DNA of 64,000 nucleotides from Caulobacter mirabilis (GTDB lineage Bacteria > Pseudomonadota > Alphaproteobacteria > Caulobacterales > Caulobacteraceae), in NCBI RefSeq assembly GCF_002749615.1, contig NZ_CP024201.1:2542001-2606000 (forward strand), written 5' to 3'. The position numbers were made by a program, and so were the translations under genes. Positions 36,757 through 40,031 of the stretch are shown one piece after another; position 1 is the first letter of the stretch; each line of letters starts with the position of its first letter. Below the pieces are notes generated by a model. The model did no database searches. It was given only the letters and a program-made list of their open reading frames with translations, and was not told where the DNA came from.

Positions 36757-37959
36757 TCAGTAGATCAGGTACGGCGCCCGCTCTTGCGCCCAGGCCGCTT
36801 CGTCGGGCGTGGTGATGGCGTCGAGGTCCCCCGGCGCCGCCTCGCTGTCGTCGACCCACTCGCGCAGGCCGGGCCCGCCGTTGATGACGTCGATGGCCAG
36901 CTTGTCGAACACGTACTCGTACGGGAAGTCGCGCCACAGGTCGTAGTCCGGGTACAGCGCCCGGATCGCCTTGAAGGCCAGCGCCTGCAGCCGCCAGGGC
37001 TTGAAGGCCTCGTGATCGTAGCTCGGGTCCTCGGTGTGGATCTGCACCCCGCTGCTCAGCGTCTTGGCGTGCTTGTGGAAGGTCGGCTCGAAGGCGACCT
37101 CGCGCAGGCGGCAGCCTTTCAGCCACTGCGGCGCCAGGGCGTACATCTTGGCGATGACGTCGCGGGCGGCGATGTCCGGCGCGCCGAACAACTCCAGCGG
37201 CCGGGTCGTGCCGCGCCCCTCGCTGAGGGTCGTCCCCTCCAGCATGACCGTGCCGGCGTAGGCCCGGGCCATCCAGAGGTTCGGCGCATTGGGGCTCGGG
37301 TTGATCCAGGCCCGCTGGCCCAGCGGCCAGCCGTAGCCTGGCCCGGCGGCCGGGTCGTAACCCTCCATCTCGACCACCTTGTAGGCGACGTCGAGCCTGT
37401 AGCGAGCGATGAACCAGCGGCCCAGCTCGCCCAGGGTCAGGCCGTGACGCATCGGGATCGGGCCAGCGCCGACGAAACTCTCCCAGCCCGGGCGCAGGGT
37501 CAGTCCCTCGATCGGCCGTCCGGCGGGGTTGGGCCGGTCCAGCACCCAGACCTCCTTGCCGTGCTCGGCCGCGGCTTCCAGCACGTACAGCAGCGTGGTG
37601 ATGAAGGTGTAGATGCGACAACCCAGGTCCTGCAGGTCGACGAGGATGACGTCGAAGGTCCCCATCGACTGGCCGCTGGGGCGACGCACCTCGCCATAGA
37701 GGCTGAAGACGGGAATGCCGTGCACCGGATCGGTGAAGTCCGGCGACTCCATCATGTTGTCCTGCAGGTCCCCGCGCATGCCGTGCTGCGGCCCGAAGGC
37801 GGCGGAGAGCTTGATCTCCGGGCAGGCCGCCAGGGCGTCCAGCGTATGGGTCAGGTCGGCCGTCACCGAGGCCGGGTGGCCCAGCACGGCGACCCGCTTG
37901 CCCTTCAGCTGCGCGCGGAGGGCCGGGTCGGAGATCAGGCGGTCGATGCCGAACTTCAT
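36757..37959 (-). CDS. NamZ-like exo-beta-N-acetylmuramidase (DUF1343 family)
   Basis: A 400-residue member of DUF1343, whose characterised member NamZ removes MurNAc from the non-reducing end of peptidoglycan fragments. Signature segments include GKRVAVLGHPASVT, AFGPQHGMRGDLQDNM, PVFSLYGEVRRPS, ILVDLQDLGCRIYTFITTL and VWVLDRPNPAGRPIEG. No signal peptide is visible, so it would act in the cytoplasm, perhaps in muropeptide recycling. The start overlaps the upstream gene by 4 bp. Confidence 0.87.
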   Translation of the reverse strand: MKFGIDRLISDPALRAQLKGKRVAVLGHPASVTADLTHTLDALAACPEIKLSAAFGPQHGMRGDLQDNMMESPDFTDPVHGIPVFSLYGEVRRPSGQSMGTFDVILVDLQDLGCRIYTFITTLLYVLEAAAEHGKEVWVLDRPNPAGRPIEGLTLRPGWESFVGAGPIPMRHGLTLGELGRWFIARYRLDVAYKVVEMEGYDPAAGPGYGWPLGQRAWINPSPNAPNLWMARAYAGTVMLEGTTLSEGRGTTRPLELFGAPDIAARDVIAKMYALAPQWLKGCRLREVAFEPTFHKHAKTLSSGVQIHTEDPSYDHEAFKPWRLQALAFKAIRALYPDYDLWRDFPYEYVFDKLAIDVINGGPGLREWVDDSEAAPGDLDAITTPDEAAWAQERAPYLIY

Positions 37960-38498
37960 GCGGGCTCCAGATCGTACGCGAAGGCGGCGGGATGGTGGAA
38001 GTCGGGCTTGTCCGGCGCATGGGCCAGCGCCCAGTAGGACTTGCGGCCGTCGGCCTCTTCGATGACCGCCGAGAGGCCGAGCCGCCAGTCGCCCGCGGAC
38101 AGGTCGGACAGGCCGGCGAGATCCATGGTGGCGACCATCTCATAGAGCCGGCCGTCCGTCCGCTGGGTCATGTGAGTCACCGCCACGCCGTCCGGCGCGG
38201 TCATGCCGTCCCGATAACCGTCGAAGCCGTAGGCCGCCCAGCGGTTCGAGGGCGACAGGTTGAACTCATAGTACCCCGCCCCCTCTTCCTTCCTCAGGAA
38301 GGCCTCGAAACAGGTGGTCCGCCAGAGCTCGTCGGCGCGGCCTCGCTCGACCGGGCGCGGCAGGCGCAATCCGGCGATGTCGCCGGTCACGACGAAGCGC
38401 AGGGCCAGGCCGGCCGGCGCGGACCGGGCCAGGTTGACCGCGATCGTCTCGACCGCCTCGCAGGGCGTCAGGGGGTGTGGCGTCAGGGCCAGAGTCAT
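37956..38498 (-). CDS. DOMON-like domain protein
   Basis: A 180-residue protein with a beta-sandwich pattern: ELWRTTCFEAFLRKEEGAGYYEFNLSPSNRWAAYGFDGYRDGM, then DWRLGLSAVIEEADGRKSYWALAHAPDKPDFHHPAAF. These match the DOMON-like proteins often found beside DUF1343 genes. Ligand and role are unknown. It is upstream of and overlaps the NamZ-like gene (ATGA), so the two form an operon. Confidence 0.82.
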   Translation of the reverse strand: MTLALTPHPLTPCEAVETIAVNLARSAPAGLALRFVVTGDIAGLRLPRPVERGRADELWRTTCFEAFLRKEEGAGYYEFNLSPSNRWAAYGFDGYRDGMTAPDGVAVTHMTQRTDGRLYEMVATMDLAGLSDLSAGDWRLGLSAVIEEADGRKSYWALAHAPDKPDFHHPAAFAYDLEPA

Positions 38499-38554
38499 GC
38501 CCCTTCGATACCCCGCGGTTGACGCGGGTCAATGGGCGGCGGTACGAAGCCCGC

Positions 38555-38605
38555 ATGATCGCCAAGGCCGCCCTCGCCGCCCTCTATTACGCCCGCTCGT
38601 TCTGA
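38555..38605 (+). CDS. Candidate Tyr-Tyr leader peptide upstream of tyrS
   Basis: A 16-codon open frame, MIAKAALAALYYARSF, ends 166 bp before tyrS. Two consecutive Tyr codons (TAT TAC, 38585-38590) are followed closely by a hairpin that overlaps the stop (38594-38600 with 38605-38611). A second perfect 9 bp hairpin lies at 38624-38649. This is how amino-acid attenuators are built. There is no clear ribosome site and no T-run after the second hairpin, so it may be chance. Confidence 0.35.
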   Translation: MIAKAALAALYYARSF

Positions 38606-38623
38606 CGAGCGGCGCTGCGATCG

Positions 38624-38649
38624 CATGCCGCCCAACCTCCGGCGGCATG
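38624..38649 (+). promoter_or_regulatory. Perfect 9 bp hairpin in the tyrS leader
   Basis: CATGCCGCC (38624-38632) and GGCGGCATG (38641-38649) with an eight-base loop, between the short Tyr-Tyr frame and tyrS. The right arm (GGCGGC) is also complementary to GCCGCC runs inside the short frame, so alternative pairings are possible. Confidence 0.5.
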
Positions 38650-38771
38650 TCCTGATCTGATCCAGCACACGGTCGCCGGTCCCCTTCGAAGGAGACCTCC
38701 GTATGCTCATGACCTTGAACCCCTCCCCGCCTGACGTGCTAGAGCCCTCGGCGCAAGGAGACTCCCCGCCG

Positions 38772-40031
38772 ATGACCGCCGACGCCGCCTTCAAGTCCGA
38801 TTTCCTGCACACGCTGCAGGAGCGGGGCTTCATCCACCAGATCACCCATCCGGAGGAGCTGGACCAGGCGGCGTCCAAGGGACCGATCGCGGCCTACATC
38901 GGTTTCGACGCCACCGCGCCCAGCCTGCATGTCGGCAGCCTGATCCAGATCATGATGCTGCGCCGCCTGCAGCAGGCCGGCCACAAGCCGATCGTCCTGA
39001 TGGGCGGCGGCACGACCAAGGTCGGCGACCCGACCGGCAAGGACGAGGCGCGCAAGCTGCTGAGCGAGGCCGACATCCAGGCCAACATCGCCTCGATCCG
39101 GACCGTGTTCGCCAAGTTCCTGACCTTCGGCGACGGCCCAACCGACGCGGTGATGGTCGACAACGACGAGTGGCTGAGCCAGTTCGGCTACGTCCAGTTC
39201 CTGCGCGACTACGGCGTGCACTTCACGATCAACCGCATGCTGTCGTTCGACTCGGTGAAGCTGCGGCTCGAGCGCGAGCAGCCGATGACCTTCCTCGAGT
39301 TCAACTACATGCTGATGCAGTCGGTGGACTTCCTGGAGCTCAGCCGGTCGCGCGCCGCGGTGCTGCAGATGGGCGGCAGCGACCAGTGGGGCAACATCCT
39401 CAACGGGGTCGAGCTGATCCGGCGCGTCGACCAGAAGCCGGCCTTCGGCCTGACCACCCCGCTGCTGTCGACCGCTTCGGGCGCCAAGATGGGCAAGACG
39501 GCCCAGGGCGCGGTCTGGCTGAACGCCGACATGCGGTCGCCGTACGACTACTGGCAGTTCTGGCGCAACGCCGAGGACGCCGACGTCGGCCGGTTCCTGC
39601 GCCTGTTCACCGACCTGCCGCTGGACAGGATCGCCGAACTGGAGGCTCTCCGGGGCGCCCAGATCAACGACGCCAAGAAGGTGCTGGCCGACGAGACCAC
39701 CACCATGCTCCACGGCGCCGAGGCGGCGAAGGCCGCGCGGGAAGCCGCCGAGAAGGCGTTCGAGCAGGGCGCGCTGTCGGCCGACCTGCCGACGGTGGAG
39801 ATCGCCGCCTCGGTCCTGGCCGAGGGCGTGGCCCTGGCCGTGCTGGCGACCGACATCGGCCTGACCGCCTCGCGCGGCGAGGCCCGCCGTCTGGCCCAGG
39901 GCGGCGGCCTGCGTCTCAATGACGCCCAGGAGAAGGACGGTGACCGCGTCATCACGCCGGCCGACTTGGTCGACGGCGTGGTCAAGCTGAGCCAGGGCAA
40001 GAAGAAGATCGTGCTGGTGAAGCCGGTCTAG
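38772..40031 (+). CDS. tyrS: Tyrosyl-tRNA synthetase
   Basis: A 419-residue class I synthetase charging tRNA-Tyr. HIGH-type motif PSLHVGSL near residue 55 and KMSKS-type AKMGKT near residue 240 are present; the tyrosine pocket shows [12 protein letters not shown] and [10 protein letters not shown], and an S4-like domain ends the protein. The ATG at 38772 (AAGGAG, 11 bases upstream) gives the normal length. An in-frame ATG at 38703 also has a good AAGGAG eight bases upstream and would add 23 residues; I prefer 38772 from family length. Confidence 0.95.

Follow-up and report, generated by a model that had tools for sequence, protein, structure and literature searches.

A conserved reading frame with tandem tyrosine codons ahead of Caulobacter tyrS, probably a tyrosine attenuator

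The synthetase gene tyrS of Caulobacter mirabilis is preceded by a 16-codon reading frame with two adjacent tyrosine codons, an arrangement that is real and is conserved in Caulobacter and many relatives. Comparison of these leaders suggests that the element most likely raises production of the synthetase when charged tyrosine tRNA runs short. That it senses tyrosine is very probable; that a relay of hairpins carries the response to translation is slightly favoured; and the two parts taken together and loosely read, a tyrosine-sensing leader peptide that attenuates tyrS at the level of translation by way of a hairpin relay, make a reasonably probable account. Leader-peptide control of tyrS was put forward in an original prediction for this DNA, and the conservation of frame and tyrosine codons together with the co-evolution of the helices supports the idea, but its output should be changed, a hairpin over the Shine-Dalgarno sequence being favoured over a transcription terminator. 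The window analysed here is a stretch of 64,000 nucleotides of the 4.58-Mb genome, in which tyrS lies downstream of the leader.

The leader frame, its predicted promoters and the probable start of tyrS

The features of the region, with the basis of each assignment, are as follows.

38519..38548, forward strand: predicted leader promoter P1, with -35 TTGACG (38519-38524), a weak -10 TACGAA (38543-38548) and a predicted start at 38555 (TTGAC spacing)
38555..38605, forward strand: leader reading frame (tyrL), 16 codons, MIAKAALAALYYARSF followed by a stop, predicted leaderless (list of reading frames, comparison across loci)
38585..38590, forward strand: tandem tyrosine codons TAT TAC, codons 11-12 (comparison across loci)
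38703..40031, forward strand: tyrS, probable full frame of 442 residues, with a shorter start at 38772 (Pfam tRNA-synt_1b, 1.2e-76, for the part from 38772; extended start open in relatives)
38715..38745, forward strand: predicted second promoter P2 in tyrS codons 5-15, with TTGAAC (38715-38720) and extended -10 TGCTAGAGC (38737-38745) (TGNTA conservation)

The 16-codon frame with tandem tyrosines that the original prediction described is confirmed at 38555-38605. Leaders at other loci were collected by a rule that ignores residue identity, namely TTGAC lying 35-38 nucleotides 5′ of an ATG that opens a frame of 12-24 codons. By this rule a short frame stands upstream of the gene at 67 of the 70 tyrS loci read in the genus Caulobacter, and it carries tandem codons for the synthetase's own amino acid (YY), as an attenuator should, in 65 of the 67, at codons 11-12 in 63. 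These 70 loci come from 69 genomes, with two loci in G053; TyrS matches are found in 72 of 75 genus genomes, of which G020, G066 and G070 were left out. Further loci of the family, drawn from the best-scoring TyrS matches, have a leader at 53 of 62 (YY in 50), and the named loci, distant outgroups included, at 28 of 80 (YY in 25). Pooled over all sets, with some genomes counted twice through the named and unnamed sets, leaders are present at 148 of 212 loci, with YY in 140 and at codons 11-12 in 133. The frame and its tyrosine codons, whose absence from close relatives was to count against the original prediction, are thus conserved well beyond close relatives. Among the eight leaders that lack YY, six retain one tyrosine (YH, HY, YC, SY); the other two, L079 and L183, belong to one genome and form a natural variant in which both tyrosine codons are lost. 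The leader of L067 (G060) apparently starts at ATT and reads Tyr-Ser-Tyr by eye. Several relatives have no such leader, among them L090 and other Brevundimonas tyrS genes.

A second set, selected for YY, was used for the register count, the MAFFT alignment, the duplex permutation test and the counts of promoter spacing and U-tails; YY falls at codons 11-12 in 136 of its 142 leaders. Across 62 sixteen-residue genus peptides, pre-filtered for YY, only M1, Y11 and Y12 are invariant, codons 3-10 vary, and codons 4-10 show an entropy of 1.8-2.4 bits. The first tyrosine codon is TAT in 131 of the 140 YY leaders, and TAT is the minor tyrosine codon in seven genes of the window (11 vs 43).

TTGAC lies 35-38 nucleotides 5′ of the leader ATG in 140 of 141 YY leaders, and exactly 36 in 110; from this spacing we predict a leaderless transcript that starts at the leader ATG. 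Leaderless transcripts number 375 in C. crescentus according to PMC4117421. The -10 element of P1 is poor in this species and reads TAGCTAG in many relatives. A near palindrome, TTGACGCGGGTCAA at 38519-38532 (TTGACGCCGGTCAA in several relatives), lies across P1 in the window's subtype and is possibly an operator, and a divergent gene of 180 residues lies beside the leader on the minus strand (37956-38498), with no Pfam match at E<=0.001.

The second promoter, P2, is predicted from TGNTA, mostly TGCTAGA, which is retained inside the tyrS extension in 116 of 118 long leaders; the search rule demanded NTA, and the finding is the near-universal presence of the site. We read TGNTA as an extended -10 motif. 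Its in-frame codon in the 118 long leaders is CTA in 94, TTA in 13, ATA in 6 and GTA in 3, and among the leucine codons of seven window genes CTA occurs once in 176, at the P2 -10 site itself. By eye, the position of the P2 -35 varies between subgroups, and a similar GTGCTACAC stands near tyrS in several Brevundimonas and relatives that lack the leader. A transcript start 3′ of 38605 was also to speak against the original prediction. The start is predicted at the leader ATG, from the spacing found in 140 of 141 YY leaders, although a second promoter 3′ of 38605 also appears to exist.

The end point of the leader at 38771 presupposes a tyrS start at 38772. The ATG at 38703 has its own Shine-Dalgarno sequence and is in frame with 38772, and of 111 leaders with GGAG-ATG, 107 have an equivalent start whose frame is open and joins that of tyrS (142 leaders examined; the 31 without GGAG-ATG are mainly from short-spacer species), so that tyrS probably starts at 38703. 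The resulting TyrS extension of 23 residues (38703-38771) has in-frame counterparts in many relatives, and its CTA codon, a rare one, coincides with the predicted -10 of P2.

Helices of the leader and their behaviour in folding models

The paired elements, numbered by segment, are listed below.

38557..38562, forward strand: 5′ strand of P0, GATCGC, in the start-codon region, pairing with 38617-38622 (native duplexes stronger than cross-species ones)
38591..38615, forward strand: hairpin A (segments 1:2), the leader stop codon overlapping its loop (fold, co-evolution)
38609..38613, forward strand: segment 2 core GCGGC, alternative partner of segment 3 at 38627-38631 (2:3 co-evolution)
38617..38622, forward strand: 3′ strand of P0, GCGATC, after hairpin A (fold, cross-species duplex test)
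38623..38650, forward strand: hairpin B (segments 3:4), without U-tail (fold, co-evolution, tail count)
38627..38631, forward strand: segment 3 core GCCGC, alternative partner of 38609-38613 (2:3 co-evolution)
38639..38644, forward strand: segment 4 core CCGGCG, alternative partner of segment 5 at 38674-38679 (4:5 co-evolution, masking)
38674..38679, forward strand: segment 5 core CGCCGG, which in this species shares two bases with the 5′ side of hairpin C (4:5 co-evolution, masking)
38678..38697, forward strand: hairpin C (segments 5:6), covering the tyrS Shine-Dalgarno AGGAG at 38690-38694 (fold, co-evolution, masking)

Both hairpins of the original prediction are real. The stem of the one over the stop codon lies inside 38591-38615, and the second, at 38623-38650, consists of the reported 9 bp plus one closing G-U pair. 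The right arm of the second hairpin is, as had been pointed out, complementary to GCCGCC runs of the short frame, but this pairing is unlikely to matter because leader codons 4-10 differ among species; the conserved alternative partner of that arm is 38674-38679 (CGCCGG). The 218-nucleotide leader folds stably, only 1 of 200 dinucleotide shuffles being at least as stable (z -2.74). A T-box riboswitch was rejected, as no Rfam family matches at E<=1 in 38500-38800.

Co-evolution was assessed by a permutation test that compares the duplex energies of segments from the same leader with those of segments taken from leaders in different clusters (130 unique leaders, 21 clusters). All six pairings are stronger within than between species at p<=0.012: P0 (-13.0 native vs -10.8 cross-species), A (-15.4 vs -12.7), C (-12.4 vs -10.7), 2:3 (-13.2 vs -12.0, p 0.012), 4:5 (-15.6 vs -13.9) and B (-16.1 vs -11.9), the test of B being biased through the selection of segments 3 and 4 as the best hairpin, whereas the other segments were not selected for the pairing tested. 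Seven control pairings in the same leaders and clusters show no native excess (p 0.07-0.68). The original prediction proposed to judge its two hairpins by compensatory changes; co-evolution is indicated for both of them, A and B, and likewise for P0, C, 2:3 and 4:5. Once 15 leaders of other families are included, four of five settings give significance for all six pairings. In the fifth, which has only seven broad clusters, P0 (p 0.0035) and B remain significant, A (0.05) and C (0.09) are borderline, and significance is lost for 2:3 (p 0.22) and 4:5 (p 0.15). Mutually exclusive structures 3′ of the tyrosine codons, a mark of attenuators, are accordingly found with the 21 clusters and in four of the five extended settings, not with the seven broad clusters. 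The variants of P0 include GATCGC:GCGATC, GTTCGC:GCGAAC, GATCGGAC:GTCCGATC and GACCG:CGGTC, and in another family ATGTCGCACCGC with GCGGTGCGAACAT. RNAalifold predicted no pair on the MAFFT alignment A1, which holds 122 of the 130 unique leaders (one duplicate and seven leaders with YY out of register were excluded); subgroups in the MAFFT alignment look misregistered, and per-sequence duplexes with cross-species controls were therefore used.

In the default fold the mean pairing of the Shine-Dalgarno sequence with upstream RNA is 0.90 over 130 leaders, that is, the sequence is sequestered. Given the size of a ribosome footprint, a ribosome stalled with codon 12 in its A site would cover the 5′ arm of hairpin A and leave the 3′ arm free, and one at the leader stop would cover both arms. 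When a ribosome is masked at YY rather than at the stop, Shine-Dalgarno exposure rises by more than 0.1 in 49 of 126 leaders and falls in 7 (four of the 130 were dropped, having no recognisable Shine-Dalgarno). Masking of segment 3, as if 2:3 had formed, raises the mean p(4:5) from 0.07 to 0.70 in the 130 leaders, and lowers Shine-Dalgarno pairing with upstream RNA by more than 0.1 in 81 of them while raising it in 5. Outside the family, p(4:5) exceeds 0.5 in 12 of 19 leaders, with Shine-Dalgarno exposure up by more than 0.1 in 4 and down in 1 (21 leaders were given, two being dropped for want of a start).

The window itself is a poor example of Shine-Dalgarno release in these models. Masking of segment 3 takes its p(4:5) from 0.03 to 0.89, and the Shine-Dalgarno sequence stays in a small local hairpin, its pairing going from 0.75 to 0.70; stalled-ribosome masking with equilibrium folding gives no switch in the window, the Shine-Dalgarno being 0.25 unpaired in all three states. 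In the fold of the window's leader, 2:3 is less stable than hairpin B, and the relay would therefore need kinetic control.

Proposed mechanism and alternative explanations

In the mechanism that we propose, transcription from P1 would begin at the A of the leader ATG, as the promoter spacing suggests, and a ribosome would start directly on the leaderless end. With Tyr-tRNA(Tyr) plentiful, this ribosome would pass codons 11-12, end at the stop within A and leave, upon which A, B and C would form; C would hide the tyrS Shine-Dalgarno sequence and TyrS synthesis would be low. With Tyr-tRNA(Tyr) short, the ribosome would stall at the tyrosine codons and cover the 5′ arm of A, segment 2 would take segment 3, the freed segment 4 would take segment 5, and segment 6, which holds the Shine-Dalgarno sequence, would be released so that more TyrS is made. 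P0 would tie up the start codon once about 68 nucleotides have been made and, at a guess, would limit initiation to early-loading ribosomes. P2 would supply a leader-free tyrS mRNA.

The same tyrosine sensor might instead act on transcription, with termination at hairpin B or in the untranslated RNA behind it through an unusual U-poor terminator or Rho. This we hold to be rather unlikely, even though the geometry resembles that of trp attenuators, with the stop codon in A, a stall that covers the 5′ arm of A and a 2:3 pairing that competes with B, and even though a U-run closes the cysS leader of Rhodobacterales. A U-rich tail follows B in only 9 of 130 leaders, seven of which belong to the L015 group of Caulobacter, and is missing from the other 121; any 8-nucleotide stretch with six U between leader stop and tyrS start is found in only 5 of the 130. 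The lack of a T-run remarked on in the original prediction is borne out in the window, where the tail of B is not U-rich and where no terminator-like site was found in 38400-38900; a classical hairpin-and-U-run terminator of the trp type is thus absent from that interval. Furthermore, C and 4:5 co-evolve, which a terminator at B does not require. The missing U-tail in 121 of 130 leaders, the co-evolution of C and 4:5 and the masking results make a translational output likelier than termination, without settling the matter.

The remaining explanations dispense with tyrosine sensing or with a working leader in this genome. A decaying remnant, with tyrS run mainly from P2, would agree with the weak P1 -10 and the poor Shine-Dalgarno release in the window, with the well-kept P2 and with the relatives that show no such leader; the window leader nevertheless retains its start, YY, A, B, P0 and 4:5, and we regard decay as improbable. 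More improbable still is a translated upstream frame that feeds ribosomes or a peptide and does not sense tyrosine. The trp leader peptide of Sinorhizobium meliloti is reported to act in trans (PMC7298713), but most residues of the present peptide besides M1, Y11 and Y12 vary, and the tyrosine pair fits the downstream gene, leaders of prephenate dehydrogenase genes included. Hairpins are common in GC-rich DNA, but a chance frame with chance hairpins is refuted by conservation and co-evolution, which leave it next to no probability.

Occurrence elsewhere and comparison with known systems

Of the two models used, R1 draws on 42 leaders and R2 on 35. At E<=1e-3 a sequence-only model finds matches in 104 of the order's 398 genomes, spread over 19 of 59 genera, a count that can miss distant forms and includes false hits. 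Twenty stretches were fetched, made up of 18 order-level matches outside the genus, one further family member and one weak match in the own genome. TyrS adjoins the match in 16 of the 20; at L237 the sequence stops before this can be judged, and the remaining three are not leaders of tyrS. L245 and L248 have neither TyrS nor such a leader, and the other matches in the own genome are weak, the best of them (L249, E 0.004) lying in DNA that looks coding-like by eye. Under a rule that required one tyrosine after residue 8, the fetched stretches hold 17 leaders, 14 of them with YY or YYY, in families f1, f2 and f3; the leader thus precedes tyrS in three families of the order.

At the level of the class, the second model matches 2 of 385 genomes at E<=1e-4, the own genome and one (G974) of f74, another alphaproteobacterial family. 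Matches at E<=0.01 occur in 31 of 60 f74 genomes, many probably by chance, and a promoter-anchored short frame is found at 7 of the 15 loci examined there (L252-L266). Five of these leaders (L252, L253, L254, L257, L259) have 16 codons with YY and precede prephenate dehydrogenase genes of tyrosine biosynthesis, which score over the Pfam cut-off and below the NCBIfam equivalog cut-offs. The leader at L256 has YY and is followed by a gene that passes the TIGR00234 tyrS cut-off; the one at L261 has Tyr-Phe-Trp and is followed by a class II DAHP synthase that passes the TIGR01358 cut-off. The f74 leaders may share an origin with the tyrS leader or be convergent.

The leader of L261 and L280/L281 (f74, genus g366), MIAAPAQNRYFWTTLT, has Tyr-Phe-Trp in a row ahead of the DAHP synthase of the common aromatic pathway, and is possibly a three-amino-acid attenuator. 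As a general partner of the tyrS leader it was rejected, being present at only 2 of 50 DAHP synthase loci (30 of f74, 20 of the Caulobacter genus), both in one genus. The own tyrA-like gene (PF02153; L267) directly follows another reading frame and has no leader by eye, and a search of the own genome for leaders with tryptophan codons gave 5 sites against 6 in the reversed control.

We tentatively extend the proposal to a six-segment relay in which a leaderless mRNA would pass on a ribosome stall over two hairpins to a Shine-Dalgarno sequence about 100 nucleotides away, with the start codon locked by P0 and only early-loading ribosomes counting. The same module would have been fitted to tyrS and tyrA in several families of alphaproteobacteria and, in one genus, to DAHP synthase in a form with Tyr-Phe-Trp. 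If true, the tyrosine attenuator would fill the tyrosine gap in alphaproteobacterial synthetase control, and would provide a small natural system in which to test leaderless initiation, together with a series of competing helices open to testing step by step. Natural variants, losses included, allow direct tests of the leader with reporters and with ribosome profiling data already available.

Leader-peptide attenuation of synthetase genes is known already, for trpS and leuS in Streptomyces and pheST in gammaproteobacteria (PMC1262725). No description of a tyrosine leader-peptide attenuator was found in the open-access literature, as judged mostly from listings, which is weak evidence of absence. 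In Actinobacteria, leader-peptide elements are reported for trpS, leuS and cys genes, the cys leaders without obvious terminators; no conserved RNA structure is described upstream of tyrosine operons there, and T-boxes are cited for tyrosine in other species (PMC1262725). Ribosome profiling of C. crescentus is reported to show a leader frame ahead of trpS (PMC4117421), in the same genus and before a synthetase gene, although for tryptophan; the main text of that paper does not mention tyrS, whose leader may be listed in its supplements. The uORFC-8-2 motif ahead of cysS in Rhodobacterales, interpreted as ribosome-mediated attenuation, resembles the tyrS leader in joining an alphaproteobacterial synthetase gene to a short upstream frame with tandem cognate codons, there cysteine and usually at codons 14-15; its consensus always ends in a 3′ U-run taken as an intrinsic terminator (PMC8632094).

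The tyrS leader, in contrast, has no U-run after B in 121 of 130 cases and instead a hairpin that covers the Shine-Dalgarno sequence. With trp-type attenuators, E. coli trp among them, it shares the stop codon over the first hairpin and the competing 2:3 pairing, and it would share the stall at tandem codons. S. meliloti trpL is of the same type, and its RNA also starts at its ATG, as predicted for the tyrS leader (PMC7298713). What appears to be new is the use of tyrosine, the predicted leaderless start, the general lack of a U-run after B, the Shine-Dalgarno hairpin and the start-codon helix. Whereas the output of trp-type systems is a terminator, the tyrS leader would add a fifth and a sixth segment and place the Shine-Dalgarno sequence under its control.
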